From Gemmatimonadota bacterium (GTDB taxonomy: Bacteria; Gemmatimonadota; Gemmatimonadetes; Longimicrobiales; Gaopeijiaceae): a stretch of DNA of 64,000 nucleotides. Location of the stretch: the NCBI GenBank assembly GCA_028873845.1, contig JAPPNO010000035.1, positions 32,902 to 96,901 of the forward strand. Direction: 5' to 3'. Below, piece by piece: positions 4,770 to 58,409 of the stretch (within the stretch, counting starts at the first letter, position 1; the number at the start of each line of letters is the position of its first letter). The position numbers were made by a program, and so were the translations under genes. The notes under the pieces are model-generated. The model had not been told where the DNA came from, searched no databases, and saw only the letters and a program-made list of their open reading frames with translations.

Positions 4770-6023
4770 ATGCGCATCCTACACATCGCGGATGTTCACC
4801 TCGACACCGCCTTCGCCGGGCGGTCGGACGACACGCGCAACCGGTTGCGGCAGGCCTCCCGCGACGCCCTCGAACGATCCGTGGAAACCGCGATCGCGGA
4901 ACGCGTCGACGCCATACTCATCGCCGGCGACCTCTTCGACCGCGCACACCTCTCCTTCGCGACCGAGCGCTTCCTGCTGGCGCAGCTCGGGGCGTTGGGC
5001 GATGCAGGGATCCAGGTGGTCTACGCGACGGGCAATCACGACCCCGGCAACGCCGTGCGCGCCGGCGGCTTCGAGTGGCCCGGCAACGTCACCGTGATCG
5101 ATGGCGAGGAGCCGGTCGTGGTGCCGGTCGCGGGCCCCGACGGCAGCACGGCGGGGTACGTCACCGGTGTGGGCCACGCCACGAGCCGCGTCGGCGTCGA
5201 TCTCTCCCGACTCCTGATCCCCGTGCCCGACACCCCCCTCCCCCAGGTCGCGCTCCTGCACACCCTGGTGACATCGGTCGCCGGCAAGGGTGCGCACCAG
5301 CCCTACGCTCCCTCCAATCTCGAGCACCTGCGCGGCTCAGGCTTCCACTACTGGGCGCTGGGACACGTTCACCAGCGCCAGGAACTCTCCGCCGATCCCC
5401 CGGTCCACTACTGCGGAAACCCCCAGGGGCGCGACGCGCGCGAGACGGGCCCGAAGGGCGGCCTGCTGGTGGACCTGGGCGATCCCGGCCACCCGGTCGT
5501 CGAGTTCCGGGAGTTCTCGCGGGTGCGCTGGGAGCGGCTGGAGGTGGCGGGACTGAAGGGCGCGCACACCCTGGACGACCTGCTGACCGAGGTGGCGGTC
5601 TCGTGGGACCGGGCGCGCTCGGACGATCCCGGCTCCGGGGACACGGAGTGGATGGTGGCGGTGGACCTCGCGGGACCGTCGCCCCTGTGGCGCCAACTGC
5701 GCGATCCGGAGGAGCTTGCGACGATCGCGGACGAGGCGGTCGAGCGGCTCGGTGCCCTCGGCTGCGAAGTCCGCGCGCGCAAGGTGCATTCTCCCGCGCT
5801 GGTGGCGGACCACGCCGGCCGCCAGGATGCGCTGGGCGCGGCGCTGAGCCTCTGTGCGGAGGTCCGGGCCGGAAACGACCGGCTCGGTCTCGCGGACACC
5901 GATCTGGCCGGCTACGACCCGGAGCGCGACGGCTCGCTGGACGCCTACCTCCACCGCATCCTCGATGGCGCCCCCGAAGAGATTCTGACCCGGATGCTCA
6001 CCTCCGAAGGCGGCCTCGAATGA
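4770..6023 (+). CDS. Metallophosphoesterase / DNA repair exonuclease, SbcD/YhaO-like
   Basis: MRILHIADVHLDTAF...GDLFDRAHLS...YATGNHDPGNA...LLHTLV...YWALGHVHQRQ: all canonical Mre11/SbcD motifs present. ATG at 4770 inside the 4581..6023 ORF. Confidence 0.88.
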   Translation: MRILHIADVHLDTAFAGRSDDTRNRLRQASRDALERSVETAIAERVDAILIAGDLFDRAHLSFATERFLLAQLGALGDAGIQVVYATGNHDPGNAVRAGGFEWPGNVTVIDGEEPVVVPVAGPDGSTAGYVTGVGHATSRVGVDLSRLLIPVPDTPLPQVALLHTLVTSVAGKGAHQPYAPSNLEHLRGSGFHYWALGHVHQRQELSADPPVHYCGNPQGRDARETGPKGGLLVDLGDPGHPVVEFREFSRVRWERLEVAGLKGAHTLDDLLTEVAVSWDRARSDDPGSGDTEWMVAVDLAGPSPLWRQLRDPEELATIADEAVERLGALGCEVRARKVHSPALVADHAGRQDALGAALSLCAEVRAGNDRLGLADTDLAGYDPERDGSLDAYLHRILDGAPEEILTRMLTSEGGLE

Positions 6024-8506
6024 GGTTCGAGTCCATTCGGGTCGCGCGCTACGGCTGTCTCGCCGACCTCTCCACCGGCGATTCGCCCCTGCCCTCTATC
6101 GTCGTCGTACTGGGCCCGAATGAAAGTGGAAAGTCAACTTTGTTTGACTTCTTGTCAACTTTACTTTACGGTTTTCGTCCTGCCACCCGTGACCGCCACC
6201 CGTTTACGCCATGGACGGGCGGTAATCCCGAGGGGTGGGCACGCCTCCGCATGAACGACGGCACCGCGCACGAGATCCACCGCCGTTTGCTGTCGACCGG
6301 GCGTGGCCGCCTGACCGTGGACGGCCGGCACGAGAGCATCGACAACCGGCCCGTGCCCGGGGCGGAACACGTGAAACGCGTCGTTTTCCGCCAGGTCTTC
6401 GCGCTGACCCTGTCCGAGCTGGCGGGGCTCCAACGGGAGAGCTGGGAGCTGGTGCAGGACCGCCTGGTGGGCGCCATGGCGGCGCCCGACCTGCGGTCCG
6501 CGCGCCGCGTCGCGGATGAACTCGAGGCCGAGGCGGCCGGACTCTGGCGCCCGGACCGGCGCGGCCGTCCCGTTGCCCGGATCCTCAGGGACGAGCTGCG
6601 CACGCTGAACGACCGGCTTCGCGACGCAATGGAGCGCGACCGGGAATTGCGGGAGAAGGTGGCCCGGATGGCCAGGGCCGAGGCGGATCTGGAAGCGCTG
6701 CGCGAGGAGAGGGCGCGCGAACGCGAGCGCCGCGGTGTGATGGAGTATCGTCTGAACCGGCTGCTGCCCGTGCGGCGCGCGCTCGGGCGCATCGAGGAGT
6801 TGCGGCGCGAGGCCGGACGCGCGGAGGAGTTGGCCGGGCTGGTTGCCGATCCCGGCGCGAGACTGGAGGAGCTGCGGCGCGCGGTCCGCGGCGGAGGGGA
6901 GGGGGTGGACGATGCGGTGGCCTTCGCAGACGGCGAATCGGACGACGCGCGTGCCCGCCTGGCCGAACAGGGCGGCCGCCTGTTCTCGGTCCCGTGGGAC
7001 GAGATCGACCACGAACGGCTCTTGACCGTATCCGTGGACGATCTGCGGGACATGGTGAATGTGTACCGGAGGAAGCGGGAGCAGCGGCGCATCGCAGAAG
7101 AGGGTCTGCGCGAGGAATCCCTTTCCGGCCTGCGGCAGGTGGCGCCGTCGGGCCGGTGGCGGCTGGCGTCGGGTTTGGCGGGACTCCTGGCGGGCGGGGG
7201 TGCCGCGGCGGTGGCGCGCTGGTTCCCCGGCCTGCTTCGCCCCGTGCCGGCGGTCGAGATGAGTCCCGGGATCGTCTTCCGGGCGGGTCTCACCGTGGCC
7301 GCGCTGGGCCTGCTCGGCCTGATTCTCTGGCTCGATACGCTGCGGCACCGGCGTCGGTACCGGAAGGCGTTCGAAAGCGCCGAGAGGGGGCGGCGCACGG
7401 AGCTGATGGGGCTCACCGAGAGCGAGGACGTGGCAAGGCGCGCAGTCGCGCAGTCCCTGAACGGGCTCCCCGTGCGGAACTCGTTGTTGAGAGACCCGGA
7501 CCACGATCTGCCGGCCGCGTTCGAGAAGTTGGCGGTGGCACTGGCGGACAGGCGCAACCGAGATCGGGCGGCACGGCGGGAGTTGGAGCGCACGGCCAAC
7601 AGGATGGAAGCGGCGGAGTCCGGGCAGGATGCAGCCGAGGTAGAGCTGGCTGAACTGGAGGACCGACTGCGTGGACTGGGAAACGGCGACGCGGAGCGGG
7701 GAGCGCAATCGGTTCGCCGGCGTCGCGAGGCCCTCGACCGAGCGCGCCAGTTGCGGGACGAGCTCGAACGCGAGCACCCCGCGCTCGCCGAAATCGAAGG
7801 CGAAATCCGCGCCGCCGACGAGGCCGGTGAGCGGTGGGAGTCGCTGGTGGATTCCCTGGACGCCGCCGCCGTCCGCCGCGACGAGAGAAACCGGCAGGCC
7901 GAGAAGCTGCAAGGCGAAATCGGCACCCTGCACTCCGGGATCCGCTACCTGCAGGAGGGGGAGACAGCGGACCGCTTGGCGGGCAGGATCGAGGCGCTGA
8001 AGGTCCGGATCCGCGACGCGGAGGAGAGTCGCGACCGCGCCTTCGTGCTGGCGCGCATCGTGCGCGAGGCCGACCGCCGTTTCCGCGACAACCGCCAGCC
8101 CGACCTGCTGTTGCGCGCGGCAACGCACCTCCGGTACATCACCCGCGGCCGCTACGACGGGATCGAACTCGGCGGCCCAGGCGACGAGTCGCTGTACTTG
8201 GGGGGCCCGGCCGCTTCCGAACCGAGGCAGGTCGGACAATCCCTCTCGCAGGGGACCAGGGAGCAGGTCTACATGGCGCTCCGCCTCGCGATCATCGACC
8301 AGTTGGACGCCGACGCTGAAACGCTGCCCCTGTTCATGGACGAGATCCTGGTGAACTGGGACGCCTGGCGCCGGGACCGGGCCTTCGAGCTGCTGGAACG
8401 GGTGGCCGAGGATCGCCAGGTGTTCCTCTTTACCTGCCATCCCGCAATGGCCGCGGAGCTGGAGGACCGGGGGGCCAGGGTGATCGCGCTGGGGGTCTCC
8501 GGCTGA
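6020..8506 (+). CDS. AAA ATPase, YhaN-like SMC/Rad50-type protein
   Basis: ATG at 6020 overlaps the upstream TGA (ATGA). Walker A GPNESGKSTLFDFLSTLLYG, long coiled coil, central hydrophobic hairpin (LASGLAGLLAGGGAAAVA...AGLTVAALGLLGLILWL), signature-like LSQGTREQVYMALRLA and Walker B LPLFMDEILVNWD. Confidence 0.88.
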   Translation: MRFESIRVARYGCLADLSTGDSPLPSIVVVLGPNESGKSTLFDFLSTLLYGFRPATRDRHPFTPWTGGNPEGWARLRMNDGTAHEIHRRLLSTGRGRLTVDGRHESIDNRPVPGAEHVKRVVFRQVFALTLSELAGLQRESWELVQDRLVGAMAAPDLRSARRVADELEAEAAGLWRPDRRGRPVARILRDELRTLNDRLRDAMERDRELREKVARMARAEADLEALREERARERERRGVMEYRLNRLLPVRRALGRIEELRREAGRAEELAGLVADPGARLEELRRAVRGGGEGVDDAVAFADGESDDARARLAEQGGRLFSVPWDEIDHERLLTVSVDDLRDMVNVYRRKREQRRIAEEGLREESLSGLRQVAPSGRWRLASGLAGLLAGGGAAAVARWFPGLLRPVPAVEMSPGIVFRAGLTVAALGLLGLILWLDTLRHRRRYRKAFESAERGRRTELMGLTESEDVARRAVAQSLNGLPVRNSLLRDPDHDLPAAFEKLAVALADRRNRDRAARRELERTANRMEAAESGQDAAEVELAELEDRLRGLGNGDAERGAQSVRRRREALDRARQLRDELEREHPALAEIEGEIRAADEAGERWESLVDSLDAAAVRRDERNRQAEKLQGEIGTLHSGIRYLQEGETADRLAGRIEALKVRIRDAEESRDRAFVLARIVREADRRFRDNRQPDLLLRAATHLRYITRGRYDGIELGGPGDESLYLGGPAASEPRQVGQSLSQGTREQVYMALRLAIIDQLDADAETLPLFMDEILVNWDAWRRDRAFELLERVAEDRQVFLFTCHPAMAAELEDRGARVIALGVSG

Positions 8507-47309: not shown

Positions 47310-50270
47310 CTACCTCCTTCTCAAAGCCGAGCGGTCCGGCAATCCGAGACTGATCGCCGCATCCAGCCCCTCTCCCGGACTCGGAAGCGAAAAGGAACCG
47401 CGCAGGATTCTGCGAATGCGTCCGCTGTTCCTGTCGGTGAAGATCCCGATGGGGCGGTTCGTGGTGCGGTCCAGCGTGTCCCACCCGTCAGGGCCGGTCA
47501 ATGTGATGCGCGAGAGCGAGTCGGCCCACGCCGGATTGACGGGAAGGCTGAACACGAAATGCCCCTGGCCCGATTCGGCTTCGACCGACGGGGCAAAACG
47601 CAGCGAGAAGAGACGCGCGCCGTCCGGCCCCAGGCCCTCGATCCTGTAGGGCCCGTCGGTGTGCGGCAGCGACACCGGTGCATCCAGCACCACCGCGGGT
47701 TGAAGAGCGGTCCCCACCGCATCTGCCCGCCCCCAGAGAATGAGCGTTGTCGTCCGCTCCGCCCGGGCCAACGGGGTCCCCCTCCCAAGCGCACTCGCCC
47801 TCACCCGGTACTCCAGCGCTTTCACGAAACTGAAATCGCTGACCCAGCTCGGGTAGCAGTAGGACATGATGTCCGACTGGGCAGGACGTACGAGTGCCCC
47901 TTCCTCCAAATCGTATCCCCAATACCCGATGCGCCCGCCTCCATGCGGGTAGTCCGGATCGGAGCCGCCAACCCCACAGGGCGCGTGACCCAGGTCGATG
48001 TTGTGGCCGAGTTCATGAGTAATCACCTGGCTGTGGATCTCGGCAACGCCTGCCCACCCGGGCTGGTAGGCAGCCCCGCCCTGCACCGGTGGCATCAGGC
48101 CCATGTAGTGTCCCGACCCGCCATCGGTCGTCCGAAGGAGTTCGATCTCTTCGAGCAAAGAGAAAATGTTCTGGAAGATCACCTCATACGATGTCACATG
48201 AGGCTCCCGTACGCTCAGAACCACGCTGTCGACCGGCAGCAGGAGCCGGGTTTCCTTCAGAAGTGCACTTTCGGCGGTGATACCCTCCATGGCACGGATC
48301 ACGGACGAATCCGGATTCGTCGCCGAGATCATTGGAATCAATGTCAACTCGAACTGCGGCATCTCCCGCACGTCCAGCACCGCCCGGCCCGTCTCCGGGA
48401 ACCTGAGCCGGCTGCCCTCGTCCAACGGCAACTCGCCCCGGGGATCCACCTTCACAACCAACTCCAGGCCCGGCTGCAGGATCCCACCGGGGATCAACGC
48501 CTGGTGTACTCCCTCCACCCGACCCTCATCCACTTCGGTGCCTATTCCCCGGGCGCCATCGGTGGCCATGTCGGCCGTGTACACTTCCACTCCATCCCGG
48601 AAAAAGGTCGCACGGGCTTCGGAATCGAAGAAGTTCCACTCGTCGGCGACCGCGAAAACCCGCAGCAGGGCGTCGCGCCCGGCCACCAGCGGCACACTTG
48701 CCCGGGGATCCTGGATTGCCTGATTCAGATACACGACCGGGACGGACACCGTGATCGCTTCGGGATTCACGCACTGATCGCCCCGCACTTCCCCAATGTC
48801 GTCAAGCCAGCCCTGAAACCCCCGGTCAAGGGGCGCGCACAGCCCTGAGCCCTGGAAGCTGAGGGATTCCAGATCCAGGTGGGTCATGTTCGGCGGGAAT
48901 CTGCCCGCCAGACCAGGATTCCCACTTACGTCCAGCTCAGCAAGTTCGCGCAGGTAGGTCAACTCCACCGGAAGTTCGCCCACCACCTCGTTGGCCGCCA
49001 GGTAGAGCCCGGTGACCCGCCCATGGCCGTCCGCATCCACCCCCTCCCAGGTGCTCGCCGACTGATCCGAAAGCCAGCCGTCGCGACGCGACCAACCGTC
49101 GCCGCCCATGGCGTGGTAGAGGGCAGTCAGAACCAGCTTATCGTGTTCCTCTGGCGGACACTCCTCCGATAGCGCCCATGGAATCCCTTCCATCCACTCC
49201 GCGAAACCGGCGGAACGCGGCGCACAGAGGTCGGTGTTCGGGAAGATCAGCTCATTGAGTTCAAGCCTCGTAAGACCGTCCGGAAGGAGTCCCGCAAGGT
49301 CGTTTGCCGCCACATTGAGCTTGCGCAGAGATTCCGTGAACTCGCCCGGCAGGCCTCCGACAAGCGAATTGGACCCCACGGCGAGCACTTCCAGCAGGGG
49401 GAGAGCAGTCAGCTCCGCGGGTATGGGTCCCGACAAGAGATTGTCTCCCACCTCAAGAATCCGGAGCCTGGGCAGTTTGACCGCCCCGGACAGGAGTTCG
49501 CCCGACAGCGCGTTCCCGCTGAGATCAAGATGCTCGAGCAGCTCCAGCTTACCCAGCCAGTCAACGCTACCGCTCAGTTGATTCCGATACAGGATAAGAG
49601 ACTCGAGGGATGCAAGGTCGCTCAGAGTCTCTGGAATCCCACCGGTCAGATCGTTCGACGCCATGTTGAGATAGTTCAGGCTCCCCAGCTCACCCAGCTC
49701 GGACGGGATGGTTCCCGATAGTCCATTGCGTGCCAAGTACAACGAGGTCACCGAGCCTCGCACTGTGGTTCGGACTCCAGCCCAGCTGTGAAGAGGCTGG
49801 CCGCTCAACCAGTTCGTGTTGTCGTCCCAGTTGTAGCCGTCTGTCGCGTGAAAGAGCGCGGCCAGCACTCTCTCTTCCGGGTCATCGCTGACGAAGATCG
49901 ACGCTTGCCCCGAGGCCTCGCCGGCCTGGGCCGTGATTGTCGCGTTTCCCATACCCGCCCCTGTCACAACACCGCTGGCATCCACCGTCGCCACGCTGGT
50001 GTCGGCGCTGGACCAGCTGAATTGTGCATTCGAAATCTCGCTTCCCTCGGCGTCGAATGCCCTTGCGTCCAACTGCACCGTGCCCCCGGAGCTCGTCAGC
50101 ACAGCCGACGACGGCGCGACGGTCACTGTGGCCGGTATCGGCCCCGTCGGCCGGTCAGTTTCGGCAGGGTTTTCGCATGCGCCCCCTGTGAACAGGGACA
50201 GCACCGGCAACCACCTGAGGCATGAAGCCCCCCGCACGGCCCCGTCGGGCAACCTCGTCACTTTCGTCAT
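47310..50270 (-). CDS. Secreted protein: Big2-like domain + plant-type leucine-rich repeats + metzincin-type zinc metallopeptidase domain
   Basis: Big2-like VTVAPSSAVLTSSGGTVQLDARAFDAEGSEISNAQFSWSSADTSVATVDASGVVTGAGMGNATITAQ; LRRs GTIPSELGELGSLNYLNMASNDLTGGIPETLSDLASLESLILYRNQLSG...; zinc motif HELGHNIDLGH. ATG at 50270. Confidence 0.85.
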   Translation of the reverse strand: MTKVTRLPDGAVRGASCLRWLPVLSLFTGGACENPAETDRPTGPIPATVTVAPSSAVLTSSGGTVQLDARAFDAEGSEISNAQFSWSSADTSVATVDASGVVTGAGMGNATITAQAGEASGQASIFVSDDPEERVLAALFHATDGYNWDDNTNWLSGQPLHSWAGVRTTVRGSVTSLYLARNGLSGTIPSELGELGSLNYLNMASNDLTGGIPETLSDLASLESLILYRNQLSGSVDWLGKLELLEHLDLSGNALSGELLSGAVKLPRLRILEVGDNLLSGPIPAELTALPLLEVLAVGSNSLVGGLPGEFTESLRKLNVAANDLAGLLPDGLTRLELNELIFPNTDLCAPRSAGFAEWMEGIPWALSEECPPEEHDKLVLTALYHAMGGDGWSRRDGWLSDQSASTWEGVDADGHGRVTGLYLAANEVVGELPVELTYLRELAELDVSGNPGLAGRFPPNMTHLDLESLSFQGSGLCAPLDRGFQGWLDDIGEVRGDQCVNPEAITVSVPVVYLNQAIQDPRASVPLVAGRDALLRVFAVADEWNFFDSEARATFFRDGVEVYTADMATDGARGIGTEVDEGRVEGVHQALIPGGILQPGLELVVKVDPRGELPLDEGSRLRFPETGRAVLDVREMPQFELTLIPMISATNPDSSVIRAMEGITAESALLKETRLLLPVDSVVLSVREPHVTSYEVIFQNIFSLLEEIELLRTTDGGSGHYMGLMPPVQGGAAYQPGWAGVAEIHSQVITHELGHNIDLGHAPCGVGGSDPDYPHGGGRIGYWGYDLEEGALVRPAQSDIMSYCYPSWVSDFSFVKALEYRVRASALGRGTPLARAERTTTLILWGRADAVGTALQPAVVLDAPVSLPHTDGPYRIEGLGPDGARLFSLRFAPSVEAESGQGHFVFSLPVNPAWADSLSRITLTGPDGWDTLDRTTNRPIGIFTDRNSGRIRRILRGSFSLPSPGEGLDAAISLGLPDRSALRRR

Positions 50271-50483
50271 CGTCCGTCGCGCTCCTTGCAAAACCACATC
50301 TCCGTCTCCAACCGTGTTGCCCGTTTCCCAGGGCGCACATGCTCGGCCAGTGACCCGCATTGCTGAATTTCCGGGAGTTCTTCCGGTATCCGCAATACCC
50401 GGTATGCATTGCCGACCCGGCCGTCCCATGCCAAGGCATGACAGAACCGGTCGTTGACAAGCGCCGTCAACTGCCTTGCCTGC

Positions 50484-54490: not shown

Positions 54491-55972
54491 CTACCCCCCG
54501 AGCCAGACGGACCCGAGCCCCGACCTCTGCCGGCGAATGCGGCCCTCCCGCCGCGTTCCGTCCAGCCTGTAGATCAAGTCGAAGTACTCCGGCACCGAGG
54601 TCGCGACCTCCGGGGGGGCGTGCACCAGCACGACGGGGATGCGCCGCGCCAGACCGGCAAGAGCCGCCACTGCGCGGGGCCGATCCTCGCGGTTCAGCCG
54701 GGCGAGGTTGTCGGGCAGGATCATCGAGTCCGGCCTGACGCCCGCACCCGCCGCCAACTCGACCAGGGCGATCCGCGCCGCCACCTCGAGCACCGCAACG
54801 TCCTCGCCACCCCGCCCCCCACCCCTCGACCAAACGGCGAACAGTTCCGGAAACGCTCCCACCAGCCGCCCCCCGGTGAGTGCCACCACCTTGCCGTGAA
54901 TCCTGGCCCGCACGCGCCGGCCCGTCTCGGCCAACAACCTCGTCCTCCTCTCATCCCCGGCCGCACCGGTTCTCTTGCGGTTCCCATCCGCCTTGTCGTC
55001 GCTCCCACCCCCGCGCAACCGGGCCGACAGCTCCAACAGGTCATCGAGCCGCTGCCTGGCAGCCTCCACCTCCGACCCCTGCACCTTCCGGCGGGCCAGT
55101 TCCTCGGCCAGGCTCTCCGTCTCCGCGCCCAGCACCATGGCCCGGTTTTCGCTGGCCTGCAGGTCATCGGGCTTGCCCTCGAGCTGGTCCCGGCGACGGC
55201 GCCACCAGCGTCCGTCCTGCACCACGGACTCCCATTCCTCCCTGAGTGATTCCCGCACCGGCCCGGCGCGGTCTCCGAGCTCCCTGCCACACCTGCCGCA
55301 CCGACCGCCGTCCCCCGCCTCGTCCGTGCTCTTCAGCTGCCCGCGCAGTTCGCGTTCCCGGTCGCGATACAGCAGCAGGCGGGTCTCGGCGTCCTGGCGC
55401 TCGCGCACCCACGCCATCGTGCCGGCCTCCGCGTCGCCGCGGGCTATCGCAGCCTTCTCACGTGCCTCACGAAGTCGCGCCTCAAGTCCCCCGACCTCTT
55501 CCCGCAGCCGCGTCAGGCGTTCCACCCGGCTGCGCGCGTCCCGCGCAAGTCGCGCCACCACCGCATCCGCCGGGCCACCTGCCGATCCCTCTCCCCCACC
55601 GCCACCCCCGCGCATCTCAGCCGCCCCAACCGGGCCCACCAGCAACGCCGCCGCCGCTGCCAGCCAGGCCGTCGCGGGCCCGTCGCCGAACCAGAGCGCT
55701 CCGTACTCCTCGCGCCGAAGTCCGTGCCTCTCCAACACGGCCTCGAGGTGCGCTTCGAAGCCTGAAGTCCCGACACCGATCGGCCCCTCCGGCCCCTCCA
55801 CCACCGGTCCGGGACCGCGGTGACCGCCCCGGCTGCCGAACGCCGTTCGCAGGCCGGCCAGGAACTCATCCCACAACGGATCACGCCCGCCCACAAACCC
55901 CACCAGACCCCGGGCACCGCGCAGGTCCAGCACCGGACCGCGCGACCCCGCCTGCAGCGACGTAATCCTCAT
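54491..55972 (-). CDS. Rad50/SbcC-like zinc-hook coiled-coil protein with degenerate ATPase motifs
   Basis: Head GARGLVGFVGGRDPLWDEFLAGLRTAFG (no GxxxxGK[ST]), coiled coil with CGRCG hook, C-terminal SRGGGRGGEDVAVLEVAARIALVELAAGAGVRPDSMILPDNLARLNRED (Walker B DE replaced by PD). ATGA overlap with upstream SbcD-like gene. Confidence 0.75.
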   Translation of the reverse strand: MRITSLQAGSRGPVLDLRGARGLVGFVGGRDPLWDEFLAGLRTAFGSRGGHRGPGPVVEGPEGPIGVGTSGFEAHLEAVLERHGLRREEYGALWFGDGPATAWLAAAAALLVGPVGAAEMRGGGGGGEGSAGGPADAVVARLARDARSRVERLTRLREEVGGLEARLREAREKAAIARGDAEAGTMAWVRERQDAETRLLLYRDRERELRGQLKSTDEAGDGGRCGRCGRELGDRAGPVRESLREEWESVVQDGRWWRRRRDQLEGKPDDLQASENRAMVLGAETESLAEELARRKVQGSEVEAARQRLDDLLELSARLRGGGSDDKADGNRKRTGAAGDERRTRLLAETGRRVRARIHGKVVALTGGRLVGAFPELFAVWSRGGGRGGEDVAVLEVAARIALVELAAGAGVRPDSMILPDNLARLNREDRPRAVAALAGLARRIPVVLVHAPPEVATSVPEYFDLIYRLDGTRREGRIRRQRSGLGSVWLGG

Positions 55973-57012
55973 CGGCCCACCGCGCGCACGCCCACCCGCG
56001 CCCTCCCCCCGGCACGCGAAGACCTCTCACCCGCCGCCGCCACCTCGCGCCACGCCCCCGCCCCGCCCACCCCATGCGACGCGCCCTGCCCCGGAAGCGC
56101 GTCCACCCTCAGCTCCGCGACCCGGCGGCGCACCCCGGCGAGCACTTCCCGGTCGAGCGCGGCCAGGTCCTCGTCGGACAGCCCGCGCACCGGAACCCGC
56201 AGAAGCTTCCCGTCGATCCCCCCCGGCACGCCCGCCAGCGCCTCGCCCAGCCGGCGCGCCACGGTCGCCGTGCCTCCTCCCGTCGCCTCGATCGGAGCCA
56301 GGCTCACGGCGGCGCGCGCTTCGACCGGCCAGAAGGTCACCTCGCCCGACTCGAGCTGAGCGGTGACGAACCCCTTGTCGATCGCCGATTCCTCCCACGG
56401 ATCGGTACCGACCCTCTCCAGGGAACCGCAGTAGCAGGCCCGCTCGGCCACCGGCGTGTAGACGTGCCTGGAGCCCAGGGCGACGTAGTCCCAGCCGCGG
56501 CGCGCGACGGCCGGCGCATGCGAGCGTCCCGATGCCAGCGCCGCGTGCGCCACCAGGACGTTCCATTTCGCCGCCGGGTCGGGGGAGACGCTCAGCGAAC
56601 GGGAGACCATGACCGCCGGGTGGGGAAGCAGGGTGACGGACAGCTGTCCGCCGTACAGGCCGAGGCGGCGCACGGTCGTCGTGGCCACCTCGACGCCGGG
56701 CAACGCGCCGATGACCATGATCGGCCCGCGCGCGCCCGCCTCCAGGGGAATGTCACGGAGCCCGGCGGCCACGGCGACCACCACCTCCGGAAGGCTGTCG
56801 CGCAGCTTCCTGACCGCCCTGGAAAAGGTGGCGATCGGCGGCGCGGTCACCTCGGGATGGTCGAACACGTCGCCGGCGACGACCACCAGGTCCGGGCCGA
56901 GTTCCGCGATCCGTGCCAGCGCGCTCTCGAAGGCCCGGAGCACATCCCCCGCCCGCCCCGGCCCCGCCCCGGCGTATCCCAGGTGCAGATCCGACAGGTG
57001 GGCCACCTTCAC
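55969..57012 (-). CDS. Mre11/SbcD-like metallophosphoesterase with degenerate active-site motifs (GTG start at 57012 or 57075)
   Basis: VKVAHLSDLHLGYAG (DxH kept), VVVAGDVFDHPEV (GDxxD kept), VVVAVAAGLRDIPLE (GNHD -> GLRD), WDYVALGSRHVYTPV (GHxH -> GSRH), YCGSLERVG. Confidence 0.78.
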   Translation of the reverse strand: MKVAHLSDLHLGYAGAGPGRAGDVLRAFESALARIAELGPDLVVVAGDVFDHPEVTAPPIATFSRAVRKLRDSLPEVVVAVAAGLRDIPLEAGARGPIMVIGALPGVEVATTTVRRLGLYGGQLSVTLLPHPAVMVSRSLSVSPDPAAKWNVLVAHAALASGRSHAPAVARRGWDYVALGSRHVYTPVAERACYCGSLERVGTDPWEESAIDKGFVTAQLESGEVTFWPVEARAAVSLAPIEATGGGTATVARRLGEALAGVPGGIDGKLLRVPVRGLSDEDLAALDREVLAGVRRRVAELRVDALPGQGASHGVGGAGAWREVAAAGERSSRAGGRARVGVRAVGR

Positions 57013-57083
57013 CTCCCGCAGCGCCGTACCGGTCCGGCGCCCCGCCGCCCCCGTTGCTCGTGCGCGCCCGTCCACGGATTGAC

Positions 57084-58409
57084 TCAGACGTCGTCGTGGC
57101 CGCGCGGACCGCCGGCCCCGCCGAGCATTTTCAGCCCGGCGACCGGCCCCGGTGCGGTCGCCCCCGGATCGAGACACCACACTTCGTCCCCGCGGGGCGC
57201 CAGGCGGGGCGGCCCCGGGACGGCGGCAGACGCGGCCGCGTACCGCGCCACCCCCCACCCCGCCGCAGCCGCCGATTCGGCCAACTCGGCCGGAAGACCG
57301 TGCCGCCGCGCCCGCACCCAGACCCTCCCGGCCCCGGCCTCACGCAACCCGGCCAGCAGTACACCGCCGGCCAGACCCTCCCTCAACCCGCGCCCCGCGG
57401 TCTCCCAGTCCACGACCACCGTGTGCCCCGGCGCTTCGGGGACCGGAGAGTCCGCGAGCGATTCCGATTCCCACTCGAAGCCCTCCCTCACCAACGCCCT
57501 CACCTCGGCATCCGGCTCGTACAATCGCCACCCACCCTCTCCCTCCCTGGCAAACCAGCTCCCCGCACCCACGAACAGCACAGGACCGGTTCCGTCCAGC
57601 GTGCCGGCGACACCCAGTCGCCAGTCTCCGGCCGGGGGGGGATCGACGATTCGGTCCCGTCCACCGTCCCAGAGGACCTTCACCTCGGTTTCCGGAACCG
57701 CGGTGTGCCACGCCTCGAAGAGCAGCCCCGGCCGGCTGGTTTCGTGCAAAACCACGCGGCGGCGCGGCACGCGGTCGAAGATCCAGCCCTGGCAGCGCGC
57801 TCCGCCCGACGCGAACACCGCCGCCGCGAGGAAGGCCGTCACCGCCAGTACCGGGCGCCCCAGAAGCAGGTGGACCAGCGCGACGCCCGCCGCCACACCG
57901 GTCAAGGCTCCCGCCAGGACCTGCTTTCCGGCACCCAGCGATGCGGCGAAACGCCCCAGGCGTCCCCAAACCCCCCCTGCGAAGTACGCCGGCAGCGCAC
58001 CCGTAACCGCCAACCCCAGGCCCTGCGTGACCGACGTGGCGGCGAACCCGCCCATCAGCTCCCACAGTCCGGTGAACCCCGACCCGCACAGGAGCGCCAC
58101 CAGGAGCCCGACCCACCACCGCACCGCTGTGCGAACGCCCTGGTGTTCGTCCCCGGCCCTTCCTATCCGGAGACCGGCGGCAAGCGACAGCAGGGCCACG
58201 CCAACCAGAACGGAGGCCGCGCGGACCAGCCCCTGCGAGTCGCCGAGCAGCAGTTCCACCACGGACCCCTGCCGCTCGGGATTCATGATCTCGCGCGCGA
58301 GTCCCTGCGAGTCGTAGAGGAGCACCCCGGCCCCGGTCACCACGGCCGTGGCGACGGCGGCGCCCACCAGGAGTGAGGGCACCCAGATGACACGCCGGGC
58401 GCGATTCAC
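57084..58409 (-). CDS. Hypothetical multi-TM protein with C-terminal soluble region; first gene of the Mre11/Rad50-like operon
   Basis: MNRARRVIWVPSLLVGAAVATAVVTGAGVLLYDSQGLA... several TM helices then soluble part (VLHETSRPGLLFEAWHTAVPETEVKVLWDGGRDRIVDPPPAGDW...); stop lies 8 nt before the alternative GTG start of the next gene. Confidence 0.6.
   Translation of the reverse strand: MNRARRVIWVPSLLVGAAVATAVVTGAGVLLYDSQGLAREIMNPERQGSVVELLLGDSQGLVRAASVLVGVALLSLAAGLRIGRAGDEHQGVRTAVRWWVGLLVALLCGSGFTGLWELMGGFAATSVTQGLGLAVTGALPAYFAGGVWGRLGRFAASLGAGKQVLAGALTGVAAGVALVHLLLGRPVLAVTAFLAAAVFASGGARCQGWIFDRVPRRRVVLHETSRPGLLFEAWHTAVPETEVKVLWDGGRDRIVDPPPAGDWRLGVAGTLDGTGPVLFVGAGSWFAREGEGGWRLYEPDAEVRALVREGFEWESESLADSPVPEAPGHTVVVDWETAGRGLREGLAGGVLLAGLREAGAGRVWVRARRHGLPAELAESAAAAGWGVARYAAASAAVPGPPRLAPRGDEVWCLDPGATAPGPVAGLKMLGGAGGPRGHDDV

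Follow-up and report, generated by a model that had tools for sequence, protein, structure and literature searches.

A cluster of three genes lies on the minus strand at positions 54491 to 58409 of the window, which is the whole stretch of 64,000 nucleotides that was analysed. The genes mem, D and C and the overlap of the last two had been described in an earlier note and were confirmed from the open reading frames. The features are as follows, with fractions giving the number of orthologs that carry a residue.

57084..58409, minus strand: mem, a multi-TM protein with an eroded spermidine-synthase-like C-terminal domain; ancestral neighbour
55969..57012, minus strand: D, an SbcD/Mre11-like pseudonuclease of 347 aa with a GTG start; Pfam match Metallophos, 2.9e-7
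56983..56991, minus strand: D motif I (D8-L-H10), metal-1 ligands, kept; D 42/42, H 41/42
56860..56874, minus strand: D motif II (G47-D48-V-F-D), bridging ligand (D49 of P. furiosus Mre11), kept; 41/42
56752..56763, minus strand: D motif III, G-L-R-D instead of GNHD; metal-2 Asn and catalytic His lost; N 0/42, H 0/42
56464..56475, minus strand: D motif V, G-S-R-H instead of GHxH; metal-2 His lost (first His 2/42), metal-1 His kept (second His 41/42)
55969..55972, minus strand: ATGA overlap of the D stop and the C start
54491..55972, minus strand: C, an SbcC/Rad50-like pseudo-ATPase of 493 aa with a shortened coiled coil
55859..55909, minus strand: degenerate Walker A of C, GLVGFVGGRDPLWDEFL, which aligns with GLTGIIGPNGAGKSTIL; Lys 0/37
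55286..55300, minus strand: zinc hook of C, CGRCG, kept; CxxC 37/37
54692..54727, minus strand: degenerate Walker B of C, SMILPDNLARLN; Walker B Asp 0/36

The start of D is most likely the GTG at 57012, with GGGAGG ahead of it. The stop codon of mem (57084-57086) is located 71 nt upstream of this start because of an insert of about 71-72 nt (57013-57083). The near relative L001 lacks the insert, and its mem and D overlap as TGATG. D scored 36.3 bits on TIGR00619 (SbcD), below the curated cut-off of 77.65 bits; the intact homolog L112 scored 80. A profile of the D family (A1) matched solved Mre11 at 2.4e-22, indicating an Mre11-type phosphoesterase fold. The structure model of D, built on a five-sequence alignment, was of low confidence (pLDDT 46), and the fact that its top 48 Foldseek matches against PDB were all Mre11/SbcD is supportive only.

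A protein search for D in 96 genomes of the host family of Gemmatimonadota gave strong matches (better than 1e-20) in 77 of them. Active-site residues, numbered as in P. furiosus Mre11, were counted in 42 D orthologs. It is established that the ligands of Mre11 are divided between metal 1 and metal 2. The metal-1 ligands were kept, Asp8 in 42/42 and His10, Asp49 and His208 in 41/42 each. Neither the metal-2 ligand Asn84 nor the catalytic His85, the essential proton donor of Mre11 (PMC4996933), was present in any of the 42, and Arg was found at the place of His85 in 40. Of the other histidines named together with His208 for Mre11 (PMC3175470), His173 was present in 22/42 and His206 in 2/42; both count among the metal-2 and catalytic residues. 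The dimetal site with its catalytic His (DxH, GD, GNH, H, GHxH) is incomplete in the D family. The window D reads SDLHLG, GDVFD, AGLRD at the GNHD place and GSRH at the GHxH place, and the ortholog alignment confirmed the earlier reading that DxH and GDxxD are kept while the other two motifs are altered. Ligand loss in D is selective: metal 1 is kept, and metal 2 and the catalytic residues are gone.

Column-by-column alignment with intact orthologs showed that the places of Walker A, Walker B and the nuclease motifs are homologous. At the Walker A place the window C reads GFVGGRDPLWDEF. The Walker A Lys (0/37), the Walker B Asp (0/36) and the H-loop His (0/36) are missing from the C orthologs, and the signature Gly-Gly of the ATPase is also lost from the C sequence. 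The look of a Walker B motif is partly kept in other genera (e.g. LVVEEPFDRLD), more than in the clade of the window. No ATPase domain was found in C by Pfam, and its best family matches, to models of Rad50, cover the coiled coil and the hook. The Cys pair of the zinc hook was present in 37/37 and showed the top conservation among the C regions compared. The same alignment bore out what had been noticed in the window alone, that C has neither Walker A nor Walker B and that its CGRCG hook persists. In the C model (pLDDT 61, four-sequence alignment) the helical hairpin around the hook was mostly confident; fold matches, to JetABC, SMC, Lamassu and Rad50, were weak.

Weaker relatives in other families were found by a phylum-wide profile search. 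D was fully intact (GNHD, LGHYH/LGHHH) at 19 loci in six families, GNHD being present in 19/19. C was found at 18 of these loci and was intact in 18/18, with about 815 aa and the motifs GPNGxGK[ST], SGGEED, Walker B DE, an ITH/ISH H-loop and a CxxC hook. Loci of the same order share the flanks rpoD, rsgA, mem, DUF2723 and trpE where these were covered by the fetched stretch and found, individual neighbours not being seen at some loci. The flanks were not seen in the more distant families f4 and f5, so homology there rests on sequence. An intact pair of ancestral type survives in related families, syntenic where compared.

These SbcD-SbcC pairs of related Gemmatimonadota families resemble D-C in their homologous proteins and hook apex, and in gene order and flanks where compared. 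They differ in being intact, whereas the pair of the host family has lost both active sites and has shorter arms, with D and C often in one frame. The distance from P-loop to hook is about 200 residues in the window C versus 381 in the measured intact pairs. Mean identity of the hook region is 53% within the family versus 44% among intact relatives, the latter for the subset of intact C with the hook located; that of the ATPase C-lobe is 29% versus 57%. Constraint on C has shifted towards the hook and away from the ATPase lobe, opposite to what the intact pairs show, and is only moderate outside the hook.

The kept metal-1 site, with Arg for His85, might belong to a changed enzyme with a different, single-metal phosphoesterase activity, and the retention of D8, H10, D49 and H208 in 41-42/42 and of Arg in 40/42 speaks for it. 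Metallophosphoesterases of the Mre11 fold, however, normally need a dimetal centre and a His. No replacement for the missing metal-2 ligands was seen, the ATPase has lost its active site as well, and His85 is essential in Mre11 (PMC4996933). Such an activity seems unlikely.

The degenerate D sequences group in a single clade (support 100/99), and the tree requires one change. The 42 D and 37 C orthologs, which span at least 24 genera within the host family, share the catalytic losses. Private decay of the window copy was ruled out, as the losses are common to all sampled family orthologs. The active-site losses and the shortening of the coiled coil predate the diversification of the host family. 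Pairwise dN/dS (NG86, window sequence as reference) was 0.15-0.26 for D, 0.26-0.42 for C and 0.25-0.42 for mem, and for comparison 0.14-0.20 for trpE and 0.25-0.46 for rsgA, with rough values for more distant pairs owing to high synonymous divergence. The degenerate D evolve under purifying selection.

Across the family the genes follow the order HD-rpoD-rsgA-(insert)-mem-D-C-DUF2723(reverse)-trpE, though lineages differ. At 24 of 40 loci a single open frame holds both D and C; at the other 16, the window among them, the two lie in different, overlapping open frames. The same locus is present in the closed single-contig genomes G025, G067, G022, G004 and G040, which rules out an assembly or frame error.

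Slow decay, with D-C as a redundant SbcDC relic drifting to loss, would agree with the absence of D-C from genus g12, G008, g15, G245 and G279 and with the divergent lobes of C. However, the analysed loci, which cover at least 24 genera, all have open frames, dN/dS stays far below 1, the hook and the metal-1 site are near-invariant and D and C share a frame at many loci (24/40). We regard a drifting relic as very unlikely. The earlier note had taken the joint degeneration with intact frames as a mark of repurposing, not decay, and this holds well because the losses are joint, the frames intact, and the state is fixed family-wide under purifying selection. In a member of the window's own genus, D-C has been cleanly deleted from its place between mem and DUF2723 (L138 of G245, about 5962-6110). 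D-C is not essential, because it has been lost from some lineages, cleanly in G245.

Similar dead pairs were searched for in the host phylum and in plasmid and phage collections, and the plasmid and phage collections contained no relative of D-C. A mobile or viral origin is unsupported, there being no phage or plasmid match and the chromosomal synteny being conserved. A known defence system was ruled out, since D, C, mem and the fused form all gave no PADLOC match to a known defence protein. No gene of the neighbourhood points to a partner of D-C.

No curated family matched mem, and an NCBIfam K-ATPase match (E 1.4) was rejected as chance. In the mem homolog L114 (9345-11063) the C-terminal part matches spermidine synthase 3gjy at 2.7e-13; the corresponding part has eroded in the clade of the window and is missing in several genera. 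mem is the third eroding enzyme of the D-C gene cluster.

It had been suggested that the complex is possibly membrane-linked; in that case mem would bring D-C to the membrane, and the whole cluster would be one functional unit. Synteny supports this in part. At 34/40 loci mem lies directly upstream of D, abutting or overlapping it, and in families f2 and f3 it also precedes intact pairs, in the same order. At 6/40 loci, however, no TM-bearing mem candidate was found directly upstream, and the C-terminal domain of mem is missing in several genera. Moreover, mem persists without D-C: it stays between rsgA and DUF2723 in G245, has no adjoining D-C in genus g12, and lies beside rsgA in G279, where D-C was not found. 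mem is independent of D-C because of this persistence; it is an ancestral neighbour, which also precedes intact pairs and stays where D-C was deleted. The link of mem to D-C is weak, and a membrane complex is distinctly unlikely.

Other Mre11-Rad50 genes were found in the host. An intact canonical SbcCD lies on another contig of the window's genome (L129, G000:C98, 537-5100); its SbcD has GNHD and its SbcC, of about 1060 aa, has GDTGAGKS and LSGGE. On the plus strand of the window, at 4776-8506 and about 50 kb from the dead pair, is an intact metallophosphoesterase-ATPase pair with GNHD and GPNESGKST and a start/stop overlap near 6020, which we take to be of the YhaO/YhaN type. It resembles D-C in that a metallophosphoesterase adjoins a coiled-coil ATPase, but both motifs are intact and it belongs to a separate family. 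A further SbcD-like protein (L071, GNHE) is encoded on a short contig of the same genome (G000:C26). Elsewhere in the window, 47310-50429 on the minus strand encodes a large, possibly cell-surface protein with Ig-like and LRR-like repeats and an HELGH zinc-peptidase motif.

With intact SbcCD and YhaO/YhaN-like pairs in the same genome, the dead pair might enter mixed complexes with either of them as a regulatory subunit and modulate them. However, in 65 of the 77 D-C genomes no second SbcD passes the TIGR00619 cut-off, so the dead pair does not just accompany a canonical SbcCD, and the aligned SbcD-like paralogs L070 and L071 are distant from D (24-28% identity). A regulatory subunit of this kind is highly improbable.

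The reading we prefer, with a probability of about 0.58, is that D-C arose from a working SbcD-SbcC (Mre11-Rad50) pair and became a neofunctionalised pseudoenzyme, which would serve as a hook-based scaffold or tether. The protein would retain the Mre11 core fold, in which one structural metal may remain. The Rad50-like head attached to this core would be frozen, its short arms carrying a functional zinc hook at their ends. The complex would use neither ATP switching, ATP-driven opening included, nor DNA cutting. It would dimerise through both the Mre11 core and the hook and may tether or scaffold DNA or a protein partner. Mre11-Rad50, known in bacteria as SbcDC, repairs DNA breaks; the retention of the dead complex in its original chromosomal place suggests that it took on a new role. 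The more specific picture is of a Mre11-Rad50 complex that does without nuclease and ATPase and is fixed in the family as a zinc-hook tether or scaffold, its Mre11 core holding a single metal and having Arg for the catalytic His. This picture is offered tentatively, at somewhat less than even odds. Of the structural or regulatory complex proposed earlier, the loss of catalysis stands; the role is favoured by the shift of conservation to the hook and may be of this kind. The locus had also been put forward as a candidate undescribed system. The doubly dead pair was upheld; a system unrelated to known ones was not, and the locus is best described as a derived SbcDC.

Eukaryotic replicative polymerase B-subunits are a known case of a nuclease turned scaffold (PMC4996933). 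Like D, they have a Mre11-related phosphoesterase fold, lost the nuclease motifs and became a scaffold, but lineage and partner differ, the partner being a DNA polymerase there and a zinc-hook Rad50-like protein, itself ATPase-dead, here. Fusions of Mre11 and Rad50 are also known, Mimivirus R555 and others (PMC3175470), and many family members, those with D and C in one open frame, may share with them a nuclease-like domain N-terminal to a Rad50-like one in a single chain. In R555, however, the motifs for ATP binding and most of those of the nuclease are kept, and known fusions occur sporadically, in connection with viruses and plasmids, whereas D-C is chromosomal, family-wide and dead. A limited literature search found no description of an inactivated SbcCD or of a family-wide doubly dead SbcDC, and the latter is what would be new relative to the known fusions and inactivated scaffolds.

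The labels 'SbcD' or 'DNA repair exonuclease', transferred to D genes, would mislead on activity. Possible structural roles of Mre11-Rad50 that are independent of catalysis are hard to test, as mutants of active complexes are confounded. D-C is a natural separation-of-function protein in which both activities are gone, the hook and one metal site are kept, and intact relatives can be compared. It is a prokaryotic parallel to the conversion from nuclease to scaffold that has been proposed for the eukaryotic polymerase B-subunits. If D-C is indeed a tether, natural evolution can separate the structural side of Mre11-Rad50 from both of its catalytic activities.
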